A DNA stretch of 64,000 nucleotides from a virus. Where the stretch lies: positions 1-64,000 of IMG/VR virus record IMGVR_UViG_3300028829_003841; one strand, 5' to 3'. Made by a program: the position numbers and the translations under genes. This document shows, in pieces, positions 3,306-48,165 of this stretch (the first letter of the stretch is position 1; each line of letters starts with the position of its first letter). The notes beneath the pieces are model-generated. The model was not told where the DNA came from. It searched no databases and was given only the letters and a program-made list of their open reading frames with translations.

Positions 3306-3728
3306 TTACCCTACGATATTTAGTAATATTTTTTTGTTAGTGTCAAACCACTTAACAATAGATTGTACTGCTTTTTCTTTAGTTGCTTTAGATACTTTTC
3401 GGAATTTTTTTGGTTTTTCGGATGGATCAGCAAAATTAAAATTTTGTTGAAATGATTCAACTAAAAATCCATTTCGTTCTTTACTAATATGCCACCGCAT
3501 CCGTATTTTTGAATTATCTAAAATTCCATTTGAAACAGTTTCTTTTACACCAGATGCATAAGAAATTAGTAATGATCTATTATGTTCTCCACCAAGAGTT
3601 GATTGCCGGAATCCCATAGTGTGTCCTACTTTATATTCCATCAACTGTTTTTCTAATTGTTGTTGAATAAAATTCATCTCCATTGCTAATTCATCTTCTT
3701 CTTTTATATATTGTTTAAACGTTTTCAT
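3306..3728 (-). CDS. Capsid-targeted internal head protein candidate (140 aa)
   Basis: It starts MKTFKQYIKE, another match to the T4 internal-protein capsid-targeting sequence (predicted cut after Glu10, leaving EDELAMEM). The body mixes an N-terminal helix (FIQQQLEKQLMEY), a beta-rich centre and a basic C-terminus (KPKKFRKVSKATKEK). It lies 2 bases downstream of the packaged kinase gene and 8 bases upstream of gp13. The function is unknown. Confidence 0.72.
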   Translation of the reverse strand: MKTFKQYIKEEDELAMEMNFIQQQLEKQLMEYKVGHTMGFRQSTLGGEHNRSLLISYASGVKETVSNGILDNSKIRMRWHISKERNGFLVESFQQNFNFADPSEKPKKFRKVSKATKEKAVQSIVKWFDTNKKILLNIVG

Positions 3729-10023: not shown

Positions 10024-12585
10024 TTATACTCCTGTAGGATCATTAAATATTCGATCAGTTCTTTGTTGAATTGGTATAGAGGAATCGGTTGCTGGTCTTG
10101 GAAGATCATCAATAAATTCATAATTCCAATCTTCGTGTAATATAACCACATCAATATTGGTTGCGCCAGATGCTTCGTAAGTATGATTGAATGTGGTTCC
10201 TGAACTTTCTATTCCATCTATTTCTGTATTTGTTCCTGTTTGTAATATTCTAACTTCTGAGCCTGTTTTCAAACCAGTGAAAGATATTACTGTTGAACTA
10301 TTTATATCTATTGCTCCGGGCGCAACGGGAATAGGATATGTATCAATACCCAACGATTCGTTTACGTCTGCATTTGATCCATTGGTTAAATTGATTATAA
10401 CTTTTCCTCCAGAGGTCAATAGAAAGGGGACATCAACTGGTTGGGCAACATATGTAGTTCCATCCCACGTGACTGCGTTCCCTGCATGAGATGAAGAAGA
10501 CCCATCATATCTCATTGTTATATTATTAGAAACATCTCCACCTGTTGCTGGAACTTCAATAACCCAAAAGTATGTTTGTGTGTTTGTAGGAACAAACCCA
10601 TCTTCGAATAAAAATTGTACTGCATTTGATCCTGTCCCTAATTTAGAAACGTCAATCTCATTTGATGTTGCTAAAATTGCGCCTGTTGGTTCTGCATTGG
10701 GATGGGTAGCATCATCAGAATCATAAATTTTACAAACCATGTTTCCAGTTGGTGCGCCAGTTTTCTTTAGAAGGACTTGTAATGCATCAACAACAACTCC
10801 CGTTCCAGTAAATTCTTGACCAACTCCCCGTGTCGTTCCATTATGAAATATTATATCGTTATCAGCATTTAAATATCCATATGAATCTATGACTGTCGCT
10901 GTCGTACTATTTAAAATTTGCCGTACATCATTAGTCATTGGTGGAAATTCACCAAAGAATTTTATATTGTCAAACGTATATGTCCCGGCGGCGGCAAACT
11001 CGATCATAGTTTGAGTTGATGGATCACCAGTTGAAACAATTGTCATATCAGAAATATTTGTAGTTGTTCCGGGCCATAGTAGTCCTATATTTTGATCGTT
11101 TGTTCTATCGTTTGGGTCGATTAAAGTACCCCCAAATAATTCTGCTCCGTTGCTAGTTGTTCCAACATCTATTTTTCCGTTAGTAATGAATGTAGTATCA
11201 ATAAGAGTGGTTTTTGTGCTATCATCAAACGAGATGCCTTCTCTCGCTCCAACAAATTCCGCTCCATAAAAGTTGACAGAAGATAAATGAGCAATATCAG
11301 TTGCGAAATCAACGGTATAAGTTTGATTTCCGGGGTCTTCTGTTAAAAATCTTGGTCCGTTAACACCTTTTCTATCATCTCCTGTTCCAACTAGAACACC
11401 CATTTCAACCGATGTAGTTTGACCGGAAGCACCTTGAGCATCAATGAAATATATGTCTTCATAATTTAGAAGATGGAGAACAGATGCTCGGTTTGCCCCG
11501 CCATAATATAAATACCGTTTAAAGATAATACTGTATGGAATTGTATCTAGAAATGTTAAAGGATTCGATTGAGTGTCGGAGCCAAATCTTATTGCTGAAC
11601 CAAACAGAACAGCACCAGAAGCCTGTTCAATCAATCCATTATTAGCCCCCTCCGAATGATTAATAAAATCTTCCCACGTTGCAGTTGTCGCACCACCTAT
11701 TGCATCGTCTGTAACTTCATAAATAGGAAATCCATTAAAACAAATATCCATAAAGGTATTTTCAGCTTTAACATTGGCAACAGTCGCAACATTTCTAACA
11801 CCAACCCCAAAACGCCTCACGGCTGTTAAATCGGCACCTTCTGGAGTAACTGTCCCAACCGTTGTTCCTGCACTAGATAAAATAACATCCGTTCCATCGT
11901 CATTAACAATTACAAAAGTAGTTGCTCCTGTGACTCGTATTTCCCAGTCTGCTCTATTGATTGTAGGAACAGCAGGGGTATTACCAGCAGTTGCAATATC
12001 AGAACTCGCAATTACAACCGTCTGCCCTGTCCAGAATCCATGAGATGCTGTTGTTGTAATTTCATTTGTTGATGTGCTACCAGAAGAAATATTTACAGCA
12101 GTTCCTGTTCCGGCTGTAAATGACGGAGCCTTTCTTGTATCTATAAGTACTTGTTTCCAGCCGTTTGTTCCTACATCTGACCCACCAATCCACCATTCAG
12201 AATAATCAGTTGGTGCGCCAGTTGTTTCTGTAGAAGACGAAACCCACATAAAGAGTCCACCAGCCGCCCGTGTCAACATTACAGCAGGGGTTAGCATTTG
12301 AATTATCGTTCCTAATAATTCATTTCCAGTGGCAGTCATATCCACTACGGTATTAGCAGTTTTTGTTCCACCAGCAGTCGAGGTATACCAATCAAACCCA
12401 AGTCCTGTTTTCCAACTGTTTCCGGCGGCTTTAACCGCATTTGCGGCAGTACCTTCAAACTTAACTTGTAAGTCTTGAACTACTCCGGCGAATTGACCAG
12501 TACCAGTCCACCGGAAACCATCCCAATTGGTAGTTGTATCCGCATCATCTATTTCAGTTAGATTTATGTCAAACTGTAAAGCCAT
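10024..12585 (-). CDS. Tail-fibre/adhesin-like virion protein (853 aa)
   Basis: A long beta-rich protein. The N-terminal half is globular (FDINLTEIDDADTTTNWDG). A central stretch at about 370-580 has short repeating strands resembling a beta-helix (LLNYEDIYFIDAQG, VNFYGAEFVGAREGISFDD, TLIDTTFITNGKIDVGT). The C-terminal third contains jelly-roll and Ig-like material (VQFLFEDGFVPTNTQTYFWV). It ends FNDPTGV, shared with the 922-aa protein. Beta-helical centres are common in phage receptor-binding or polysaccharide-binding fibres. Enzymatic activity is not demonstrable from the sequence. Confidence 0.65.
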   Translation of the reverse strand: MALQFDINLTEIDDADTTTNWDGFRWTGTGQFAGVVQDLQVKFEGTAANAVKAAGNSWKTGLGFDWYTSTAGGTKTANTVVDMTATGNELLGTIIQMLTPAVMLTRAAGGLFMWVSSSTETTGAPTDYSEWWIGGSDVGTNGWKQVLIDTRKAPSFTAGTGTAVNISSGSTSTNEITTTASHGFWTGQTVVIASSDIATAGNTPAVPTINRADWEIRVTGATTFVIVNDDGTDVILSSAGTTVGTVTPEGADLTAVRRFGVGVRNVATVANVKAENTFMDICFNGFPIYEVTDDAIGGATTATWEDFINHSEGANNGLIEQASGAVLFGSAIRFGSDTQSNPLTFLDTIPYSIIFKRYLYYGGANRASVLHLLNYEDIYFIDAQGASGQTTSVEMGVLVGTGDDRKGVNGPRFLTEDPGNQTYTVDFATDIAHLSSVNFYGAEFVGAREGISFDDSTKTTLIDTTFITNGKIDVGTTSNGAELFGGTLIDPNDRTNDQNIGLLWPGTTTNISDMTIVSTGDPSTQTMIEFAAAGTYTFDNIKFFGEFPPMTNDVRQILNSTTATVIDSYGYLNADNDIIFHNGTTRGVGQEFTGTGVVVDALQVLLKKTGAPTGNMVCKIYDSDDATHPNAEPTGAILATSNEIDVSKLGTGSNAVQFLFEDGFVPTNTQTYFWVIEVPATGGDVSNNITMRYDGSSSSHAGNAVTWDGTTYVAQPVDVPFLLTSGGKVIINLTNGSNADVNESLGIDTYPIPVAPGAIDINSSTVISFTGLKTGSEVRILQTGTNTEIDGIESSGTTFNHTYEASGATNIDVVILHEDWNYEFIDDLPRPATDSSIPIQQRTDRIFNDPTGV

Positions 12586-45963: not shown

Positions 45964-46074
45964 GCAGAATCGGAGAATAATTCGGGGTTCAAAAAGTGCT
46001 ACATTTTGTAGCATATTTATTTAATGGTCCAGAATAGTCGAAGTGGGTAAATGTGCTTGTTGATAGTGCATAGA

Positions 46075-46114
46075 GGAAATGACAGGAAATGATAGGTAAT
46101 GACAGGTAATGACA
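46075..46114. repeat. Four-copy 10-bp tandem repeat
   Basis: Direct units GGAAATGACA, GGAAATGATA, GGTAATGACA and GGTAATGACA abut one another and end at a TAGTCG site. It could bind a protein or arise by slippage; it encodes nothing evident. Confidence 0.85.
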
Positions 46115-46268
46115 GGAATAGTCGAAGTTACCTATCCTTCCTCTGCAAAACCCGACTATTCTCAGAACTACGCCCAAAATAACTCATAGCCCAAAATAAC
46201 TCATCACGCCTAATTTAGCATATATATACCTGCTTTATCATAGATAGTCGGGTTTGTCAAGCTTTAAA

Positions 46269-46293
46269 TGAAAGTTACGGGTGATAACTTTCA
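46269..46293. repeat. TGAAAGTTA hairpin, copy 2
   Basis: TGAAAGTTA (46269-46277) and TAACTTTCA (46285-46293) enclose a 7-base loop. It directly abuts the -35 of the plus-strand promoter at 46295. Confidence 0.8.
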
Positions 46294-46294
46294 C

Positions 46295-46323
46295 TTGACA
46301 CTGAACAACTCCTGTGATATACT
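46295..46323 (+). promoter_or_regulatory. Sigma-70-type promoter, plus strand
   Basis: TTGACA (46295-46300), 17-bp spacer, TATACT (46318-46323) with extended TG upstream. The transcript would run through the island; no protein gene follows within 300 bases, so a non-coding RNA is possible. Confidence 0.6.
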
Positions 46324-46459
46324 GTAGGTTTATAGTTATGCATATACCAGAAACTGTGCGCTCCATTCCCATTATATATTATATATTCGAAGTTGTCAAG
46401 TGGAAATATTCGTGTAACATTAACTGTTAATGTAAATCTATGCTACGACTTAAACCTAC

Positions 46460-46488
46460 AGTATAGCACATAAAAACCATGATGTAAA
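46460..46488 (-). promoter_or_regulatory. Facing sigma-70-type promoter, minus strand
   Basis: TTTACA (46483-46488), 17-bp spacer, TATACT (46460-46465). It shares TATACTGTAGGTTTA with the opposite promoter at 46295 and would produce an antisense or short RNA running toward it. Confidence 0.5.
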
Positions 46489-46500
46489 GAAAATTCCGGC

Positions 46501-46602
46501 CTATTCTATGTGGCTTCCCTGTATGTGGTTGACCAACTCCGTAAATAACCGCACTTTGGCTCGATCAGTTTACGTGTGCTTATCTTACACTACATAGAAT
46601 AG
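46501..46602. repeat. Long-range 11-bp inverted repeat
   Basis: CTATTCTATGT (46501-46511) and ACATAGAATAG (46592-46602) would pair around an 80-base loop, directly 3' of the tRNA-like gene on its strand. It may be part of a structured RNA processed with that tRNA-like element. Confidence 0.65.
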
Positions 46603-46611
46603 TCGGGTTTT

Positions 46612-46690
46612 TGGACCGCTATCAGAGACTCGAACTCTGAATTGTAACCCGGATTTACAGAGCGTATCGATGCAAATCGTGTTATAGCGG
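46612..46690 (-). tRNA. tRNA-like gene, apparent anticodon CCG (Arg)
   Basis: The acceptor arms CCGCTAT (5' at 46690) and ATAGCGG pair perfectly, followed by T and an encoded CCA. The T arm is CAGAG-TTCGAGT-CTCTG. The anticodon arm is TGTAA-ATCCGGG-TTACA, giving anticodon CCG after U33. Total length is 79 bases. The D region (24 bases) lacks the usual G18-G19 and stable stem, and the variable loop has only about 3 bases. A good promoter lies 22 bases upstream. It may be a decayed or atypical tRNA-Arg, or a tRNA-like RNA. Confidence 0.62.
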
Positions 46691-46711
46691 ATATTTTCAC
46701 TATATTTTTAT

Positions 46712-46740
46712 ATACTATCACACATATTCGGGTTTGTCAA
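46712..46740 (-). promoter_or_regulatory. Sigma-70-type promoter for the tRNA-like gene
   Basis: TTGACA (46735-46740), 17-bp spacer, TAGTAT (46712-46717) with TGA upstream. The expected start is about 15 bases before the 5' end of the tRNA-like gene. Confidence 0.7.
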
Positions 46741-46824
46741 GAGGGTTTTTGTAAAAACCGAATATCGTTATTCCTGCACTCTCAGCCAATATCTCCCTAG
46801 CTGAAAGTTGGTAAAAAGTCCTTA

Positions 46825-46992
46825 TCAATCCATCAAGAATAGTACTCCAGCCAAAACATAACCAAGCTGTCCGGTGGCTATTCCATACACAACGAGAATC
46901 CATCCTAATATATCCAAAGTCATGATTTCCTCTCTCGGTTCACCACAGAGCAAATAAGCAACGAGAATACATCCTAATATATCCCAAATCAT
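46825..46992 (-). CDS. Two-segment membrane protein with internal repeat (55 aa)
   Basis: It starts at the ATG at 46992 (MIWDILGCILVAYLLCGEPR). A second in-frame ATG follows a GAGAGGA site and gives MTLDILGWILVVYGIATGQL. The 28 bases after each Met are repeated (26 of 28 identical). Products are hydrophobic, one or two membrane spans, and the second could be made independently. It overlaps the 68-aa gene upstream by 4 bases. The function is unknown. Confidence 0.6.
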   Translation of the reverse strand: MIWDILGCILVAYLLCGEPREEIMTLDILGWILVVYGIATGQLGYVLAGVLFLMD

Positions 46993-47195
46993 GGTTCGAA
47001 GCTCAGATGCCCACAATTCGGGTCAAGATCACATACTTTCAATGATGTTGGTGGACATCGGCGCAAAATATAATGTAGAGATGTTTCTTTTATTGGTATC
47101 CAGATGTCCGTACCTTTCACCTCTACATATACTTCTCTGAGATTAATAATAACAGGTAAGATTTCATCACCAACATATATAGTCGAGTTATCCAT
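46989..47195 (-). CDS. Unknown small protein (68 aa)
   Basis: The product starts MDNSTIYVGDEILPVIINLR after a GGAGGTG site and has beta-rich sequence (EVYVEVKGTDIWIPIKETSL). Two Cys pairs toward the end (RRCPP, VCDLDPNCGH) might bind a metal. Coupled to the membrane protein downstream. The function is unknown. Confidence 0.6.
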   Translation of the reverse strand: MDNSTIYVGDEILPVIINLREVYVEVKGTDIWIPIKETSLHYILRRCPPTSLKVCDLDPNCGHLSFEP

Positions 47196-47199
47196 AATG

Positions 47200-47355
47200 T
47201 TACCACACCTCCATAGTTACAGGTCCAGTTGGCAATTTGTTCCACTGGTGCGCTACATCAGGCCAGAGCATCAATGGCTCACCATAGTGTAAGACGCTCT
47301 CAAACCAAAAATTAGCTAGGTTAATCTGGTGTGCCAGCAAAGTAGTCGGGTTCAT
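47200..47355 (-). CDS. Unknown small protein (51 aa)
   Basis: A short gene starting at the ATG at 47355 after GGAG. The product begins MNPTTLLAHQINLANFWFES and is Trp-rich (MLWPDVAHQWNKLPTGP). The TAGTCGGG repeat lies within its first codons, so that repeat is not solely intergenic. It ends within the ribosome-binding site of the next gene. The function is unknown. Confidence 0.6.
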   Translation of the reverse strand: MNPTTLLAHQINLANFWFESVLHYGEPLMLWPDVAHQWNKLPTGPVTMEVW

Positions 47356-47384
47356 CTTATTAACTCCGTTTTAAAGCTCGTTTA

Positions 47385-47546
47385 TTATAGTTCAACTACG
47401 ACTATGTTTGGGGAATATCCGTTCAACATCTCGTGGGCTTCGTCTTTACCGAAGTAACCAACTAGCTTCGTACCGGACCAATGTTCAGTAACTCCAGCTT
47501 CCAACCAAGTCACTTCGTATGTTTTTCTCGGTTTTACTTTCATCAT
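47385..47546 (-). CDS. Unknown small protein (53 aa)
   Basis: Starting at the ATG at 47546 (MMKVKPRKTYEVTWLEAGVT) with AGGAG upstream. Compact alpha/beta sequence (TEHWSGTKLVGYFGKDEAHE, then LNGYSPNIVVVEL) of the size of small phage host-interaction proteins. First gene behind promoter copy 9. The function is unknown. Confidence 0.62.
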   Translation of the reverse strand: MMKVKPRKTYEVTWLEAGVTEHWSGTKLVGYFGKDEAHEMLNGYSPNIVVVEL

Positions 47547-47584
47547 TCGATTAACTCCTATAAGCAATCGTTTATCATGTAACC

Positions 47585-47612
47585 AGTATACCAGAGTTTT
47601 GTCTGGTGTCAA
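47585..47612 (-). promoter_or_regulatory. Early sigma-70-type promoter, copy 9
   Basis: TTGACA at 47607-47612, 16-bp spacer, extended TGGTATACT with the -10 at 47585-47590. It precedes the genes 47546 to 46825. Confidence 0.82.
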
Positions 47613-47683
47613 GAGAAATATGTATATAAGTTTGAGCATAGATTTACATTAACAGTGAGTGTAATAACATCAGAAGATAGCTC

Positions 47684-47713
47684 TTGACAGATGTATAATA
47701 TATGTGCTATACT
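47684..47713 (+). promoter_or_regulatory. Sigma-70-type promoter, plus strand
   Basis: TTGACA (47684-47689), 18-bp spacer, TATACT (47708-47713). The predicted transcript covers the TGAAAGTTA hairpin and the TAGTCG hairpin repeats; a non-coding RNA is the likeliest product. Confidence 0.6.
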
Positions 47714-47811
47714 GAGAGTGGAAACTGATTCTTAGATTTACAGTGAATGTTCTGGTATATAAACATGTCACGTAAAGTACTATAAGAGATTAGTCGGGTT
47801 TTGTTTTGAAG

Positions 47812-47837
47812 TGAAAGTTAAGTCGTGCTAACTTTCA
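47812..47837. repeat. TGAAAGTTA hairpin, copy 3
   Basis: TGAAAGTTA (47812-47820) and TAACTTTCA (47829-47837) enclose an 8-base loop. Same stem as at 37074 and 46269. Confidence 0.8.
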
Positions 47838-47907
47838 TTTGGAGTAGACAATTCAGGATTGAGTCGGACCTGTCATGTTGGGCTTGACTTGGAGAGAGAG
47901 CTTGCAA

Positions 47908-47957
47908 AGCCTAGTCGGGCTACTAGAGCCAGCATGGACACAGAGCCTAGTCGGGCT
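47908..47957. repeat. Two 14-bp TAGTCG hairpin repeats
   Basis: AGCCTAGTCGGGCT occurs exactly at 47908-47921 and 47944-47957. Each can fold as AGCC/GGCT with a TAGTCG loop, and flanking CAAAGCC/GGCTTTG can close both into one structure. Confidence 0.8.
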
Positions 47958-48165
47958 TTGCCCAAACCGGAAAAAAAACATTGGGCGAAAGTAGTCGAAG
48001 TTAGAAGCTATTTTGTAACAACTTTTTTATTAGTGTTTTATTCTGTAGGTTTTTCGGTGGGAAACTTCGAATATCTCTCTATCTACCAAATCAAATTCAA
48101 CTATTCTAAAACCGGAAAATCAAAATTTTTTTCGAGCTATATTTTTAGGTTCTGAGAACTTTACT

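Follow-up and report, generated by a model that had tools for sequence, protein, structure and literature searches.

A clustered, conserved TAGTCG motif in a promoter-rich island of a T4-like virus genome, a putative regulator-binding array

In the early region of a viral genome fragment, IMG/VR record IMGVR_UViG_3300028829_003841, is an island of about 2 kb in which the hexamer TAGTCG recurs as part of a conserved motif. The best reading of these copies, although one to which we give somewhat less than an even chance, is that they form a putative regulator-binding (operator or roadblock) array controlling the island. The record comprises 70,849 bp, and the window, the whole stretch of DNA analysed here, is its first 64,000 bases; the G+C content is 34.8%. 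As the record is a fragment, further motif copies may be present in the remainder of the genome. PHROG matches to a gp32-type single-strand binding protein, a baseplate wedge protein, a DNA end protector, a head closure protein and a tail tube protein are the basis on which the virus is assigned to the T4 superfamily as a myovirus; the baseplate wedge protein shares 38–39% identity with its counterparts in T4-like phages of Pelagibacter and Methylophilales. Overlapping the far end of the record is a 21.7-kb IMG/VR contig, L066 (96.6% identity over 323 bases), which appears to be its continuation in a sister strain.

All eleven TAGTCG positions listed in the original prediction are exact, including the inverted copy at 46153, as are the longer forms described there (seven TAGTCGGGYT, three TAGTCGAAGT and one TAGTCGAGTT). 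A twelfth TAGTCG, absent from that list, is located at 47399, inverted, within a small gene. In minus-strand orientation the fuller motif reads AAMYYCGAMTAT and is concentrated in the non-coding parts of the island. Of the eight instances of its core, CCCGACTA, in the record, seven are in the island; L066 has none. Two near-variants of the same family, likewise missing from the earlier list, are TATTCGGGTT at 46725 and TATTCGAAGT at 46384. The copies and variants are as follows.

46035–46044, plus strand, motif copy TAGTCGAAGT
46119–46128, plus strand, motif copy TAGTCGAAGT
46149–46158, minus strand, inverted motif copy TAGTCGGGTT
46245–46254, plus strand, motif copy TAGTCGGGTT, directly after the minus-strand TTGACA at 46260–46255, with a poor −10 box (TAAAGC)
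46384–46393, plus strand, motif variant TATTCGAAGT, in the spacer of the minus-strand promoter 46399–46371
46600–46609, plus strand, motif copy TAGTCGGGTT, adjoining the 3′ end of a tRNA-like element
46725–46734, plus strand, motif variant TATTCGGGTT, in the spacer of the minus-strand promoter 46740–46712
47180–47189, plus strand, motif copy TAGTCGAGTT, within the start of a small gene
47343–47352, plus strand, motif copy TAGTCGGGTT, within the start of a small gene
47791–47800, plus strand, motif copy TAGTCGGGTT, followed by the hairpin 47812–47837
47912–47921, plus strand, motif copy TAGTCGGGCT
47948–47957, plus strand, motif copy TAGTCGGGCT, 36 bp from the copy at 47912
47992–48001, plus strand, motif copy TAGTCGAAGT

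The window contains 32 TAGTCG, compared with 14.8 ± 3.4 in dinucleotide shuffles (maximum of 100 shuffles, 25), and for the 1,963 bp originally cited the shuffle-based expectation is about 0.45. The hexamer is not equally dense elsewhere: in the 70,849-bp record, 12 occurrences fall within 46035–48000 (1,966 bp) and 20 in the remaining 68.9 kb. Among all hexamers of the record TAGTCG is the most strongly clustered (Poisson p 2e-10); across 20 Markov genomes, the strongest cluster of any hexamer reached only 2.5e-8. CTTGAC is also among the clustered words of the record.

Identity between copies is 78% across the motif and 27–28% over about 25 bases on each side, the latter being the random level. 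The motif is a conserved 10–12-bp core, kept while all of its surroundings differ, and the random flanks therefore mark it as a conserved site and rule out recent duplication of the copies. A weight matrix constructed from ten non-coding motif copies places 10 of its 11 best matches in the island's non-coding DNA (1,349 bp), and the ~5,600 non-coding bp outside yield next to no match of similar quality; because the matrix came from these very sites, only the absence elsewhere is informative. A conserved peptide (frame AAA CCC GAC TAT) was considered as a coding explanation and rejected, because a stop codon interrupts this frame in three of the ten non-coding copies and one copy runs in the opposite orientation.

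The island is formed by two non-coding blocks, at about 45,999–46,824 and 47,640–48,165, flanking four small minus-strand genes. It had been described as gene-poor, which holds for the two blocks but not for 46825–47546, where the four ORFs lie; the sites at 47180, 47343 and 47399 are within these small ORFs. An evident or plausible ribosome-binding site precedes three of the four.

47546–47385, minus strand, small gene, 53 aa
47355–47200, minus strand, small gene, 51 aa
47195–46989, minus strand, small gene, 68 aa
46992–46825, minus strand, small gene, 55 aa

The 55-aa product of the last of these (46825–46992) is hydrophobic and composed of two similar halves, with an underlying DNA repeat that is 86% identical over 43 bases.

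The small genes sit behind a minus-strand early promoter at 47612–47585, one of nine in the early region that share the pattern TTGACATC-N5-RRAYTCTGG-TATACT with a 16-base spacer, a class found also in L066. The non-coding blocks carry a different set of promoters, strong and sigma70-like, on both strands and with 17- or 18-base spacers. Promoters and terminators are identified here as consensus matches; promoter-like sites as a class number 28 in the region and 20 in shuffles, only about two standard deviations higher, and the best of them score far better than the threshold of the promoter scan.

47612, 45963, 45699, 44419, 43312, 42781, 41200, 39687 and 39315, all minus strand, nine early promoters
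46295–46323, plus strand, sigma70-like promoter TTGACA-17-TATACT, opposite in direction to the minus-strand ones
46371–46399, minus strand, sigma70-like promoter with a 12/12 match, motif variant in the spacer
46460–46488, minus strand, sigma70-like promoter TTTACA-17-TATACT
46712–46740, minus strand, sigma70-like promoter that precedes the tRNA-like element and has a motif variant in its spacer
47684–47713, plus strand, sigma70-like promoter TTGACA-18-TATACT; the block upstream of it, 47627–47662, is an inverted copy of 46417–46452
45997–46013, minus strand, terminator-like hairpin where the left non-coding block ends, just upstream of the early promoter 45963

Terminator-like sites are no commoner than in shuffles, and motif copies are not part of the hairpin 46013–45997. 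At three places on the minus strand the motif begins exactly after TTGACA: at 46399, at 46740 and, with the poor −10 box, at 46260. Most other copies are not linked to a promoter. As a promoter element with a fixed −10 box the motif was rejected, the −10 being good at 46399 and 46740, partial at 47796 and absent at the other copies.

What leads us to the operator-array reading is a short asymmetric site with unrelated flanks, concentrated where non-coding DNA carries promoters and placed three times just within a −35 box. A single protein that recognises this sequence, encoded by phage or host, would bind the copies across the promoter-rich non-coding part of the early region. Bound to a copy between the −35 and −10 boxes, it would block RNA polymerase, and copies away from promoters may serve as roadblocks or as anchors of DNA loops, much as mycobacteriophage stoperators do (PMC9283540), such that the promoters of the island could all be silenced at some point during infection; protein binding, repression as its effect and the timing are what we infer from the arrangement of the sites. 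Counting against this reading, for at least seven copies the matching position holds no promoter, and one of the three TTGACA-linked copies has the poor −10 box. Among about 30 neighbouring proteins scanned, most of them without a family, there is no clear DNA-binding protein, and searches of the phage collection and IMG/VR found no second genome with the array. Operator arrays of this kind are not known from T4-type phages.

Also located in the island are several RNA-like and repeated elements.

46612–46690, minus strand, tRNA-like element with acceptor CCGCTAT/ATAGCGG, T arm CAGAG-TTCGAGT-CTCTG and a TCCA end, lacking a normal D arm
46491–46612, minus strand, inverted-repeat-bounded segment, predicted branched RNA with the copy at 46600 in its closing stem (z −3.4)
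46269–46293, first of two hairpins TGAAAGTTA...TAACTTTCA
47812–47837, second of two hairpins TGAAAGTTA...TAACTTTCA, with the same stem
46074–46118, 10-bp tandem repeat AGGAAATGAC / AGGTAATGAC, 4.5 copies

The tRNA-like element has a perfect seven-base acceptor stem and a canonical T arm, and lies directly behind the strong promoter at 46740. It does not form the tRNA cloverleaf with D, anticodon and T arms and is not predicted as a tRNA by ARAGORN, and Rfam returns only a weak, partial match to the T arm of mascRNA; a decayed tRNA or a tRNA mimic is suggested. With a copy situated just after the end of this element, the motif was considered as a tRNA-processing signal and rejected, because L066, which carries tRNAs and a tmRNA, has no CCCGACTA.

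The original prediction had left the choice among a replication origin, a regulator-binding array and a small-RNA locus; the array fits best, the small-RNA proposal is partly supported, and the evidence for an origin is generic. A possible, though distinctly less probable, alternative to the array is that the island encodes non-coding RNAs and that the motif acts in RNA, either through copies of opposite orientation pairing into the closing stems of structured RNAs or through transcripts of the two strands pairing, UAGUCGGG with CCCGACUA. In its favour are promoters with no gene behind them, the tRNA-like element that follows one of these, and the presence of tRNAs and a permuted tmRNA in L066. 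Segments bounded by oppositely oriented motif pairs fold better than shuffles (46487–46612, z −3.4; 46147–46256, z −3.3; 46030–46163, z −3.0), and the pairing of 46592–46612 with 46491–46511 continues past the motif. In most pairs, however, complementarity ends at the motif, as expected of any inverted pair of DNA sites, and folds that include the copies at 47912 and 47948 are no better than shuffles (z −0.9 and −0.7). Several copies are located in promoter spacers, ahead of the transcript that starts from the promoter concerned, and the curated covariance models of Rfam give no match to a known RNA family. In a sampled genome-wide fold scan, z falls below −3 in 7 of 120 overlapping scan windows in the island versus 10 of 488 elsewhere, a modest excess. 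The two functions may also be combined, in an RNA island with its own promoter class, tRNA-like and branched RNAs, and a motif that is both operator and RNA-pairing surface, coordinating an early RNA programme; we consider this improbable, and such an early-infection RNA programme is not described for the T4-like phage group.

That the island is a replication origin, with the copies as iterons bound by an initiator or with the promoters making priming RNA as in T4-type R-loop origins, is unlikely. It would account for the clustered short repeats, mostly in the same orientation, for the 10-bp tandem repeat and inverted repeats, and for very strong promoters in largely non-coding DNA, but the island is no turning point of the GC skew, which instead tracks gene direction, and iterons need not abut −35 boxes as three copies do. 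Iterons are not known to be used by T4-type phages. There is likewise only a small chance that the copies are functionless leftovers of shuffled or duplicated regulatory cassettes. Duplications are indeed present: a 36-base block occurs in inverted copies at 46417–46452 and 47627–47662, the TGAAAGTTA hairpin occurs twice, and the stretches at 47912 and 47948 are duplicates of each other. Unselected duplication would lose motif and flanks together, however, whereas the flanks are random and the motif retains 78% identity; cassette shuffling explains the duplicated blocks, not the survival of the motif alone.

A T4 middle promoter has a −10 box and, near −30, a MotA box. At three places the motif resembles MotA boxes in adjoining the −35 position or lying just within it; unlike in MotA-type middle promoters, most copies lack a −10 box at constant spacing. 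The mobile regulatory cassettes of T4-type phages reportedly consist of an early promoter and a stem-loop. Similar to these, the island has repeated early promoters, hairpins between small early genes, and duplicated blocks; unlike them, TAGTCG motif copies persist while the DNA around them does not, and neither promoter nor hairpin accompanies most of them. Shuffling of such cassettes in T4-type phages was reported by Arbiol et al. 2010, as cited in PMC4177764. The stoperators of Cluster A mycobacteriophages, which are repressor sites, are distributed across the phage genome (PMC9283540). The island shares with stoperators a short asymmetric site with many non-coding copies, of which some overlap a promoter and the majority stand by themselves. 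It differs in that its sites are confined to 46.0–48.0 kb of a 70.8-kb T4-like record, with the core absent from L066, and in that no repressor was found among the approximately 30 neighbouring proteins scanned.

No DNA relative of the island was found in the phage collection, and no relatives of the flanking proteins in IMG/VR; because no relative with the island was found, its function is proposed here by inference. The 16-mer AGAATAGTCGGGTTTT is present at ten loci in IMG/VR, none of which has a cluster. Promoters of the TTGACAAACYCGAMTAT type were found in bacterial genomes at four clostridial loci, one of them before a tRNA gene, and were judged to be a chance similarity of strong promoters, as were matches in L010 and L011. 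The block CATAGATTTACATTAACAGT matched part of a coding region in L069 and another contig, L068. The latter contains a terminase gene with a T7-type domain, followed downstream (3337–3690) by at least seven diverged copies of AGATTTACANTNACNGTNANTGT; this array resembles the block duplicated in the island, and the contig is otherwise unrelated.

The timing of early genes in T4-type phages of environmental bacteria is poorly known; a study of the related phage Melnitz recognised early and late promoters and none of the middle class (PMC9004378). A multi-copy site within a single promoter-rich island would provide a concrete probe sequence for fishing out a regulator of phage or host origin. Should the RNA reading be correct, a small-RNA island would be added to phages that also have tRNAs, a permuted tmRNA and the RNA ligase RtcB. 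Genes for RtcB and for a tRNA nucleotidyltransferase-like protein are present in the record past the end of the window. In the T4-like phage sequence L009, 6146–7384, 7777–8682 and 9813–10439 (minus strand) encode RtcB and an apparently split tRNA nucleotidyltransferase, the head-like part and the RNA-binding/HD part of the latter being separate ORFs. Several tRNA genes are present in L066, along with a permuted, two-piece tmRNA (11278–11566; Rfam RF04321, 112.6 bits) with the tag ANDYDLALAA; Melnitz is also reported to have a two-piece tmRNA (PMC9004378).
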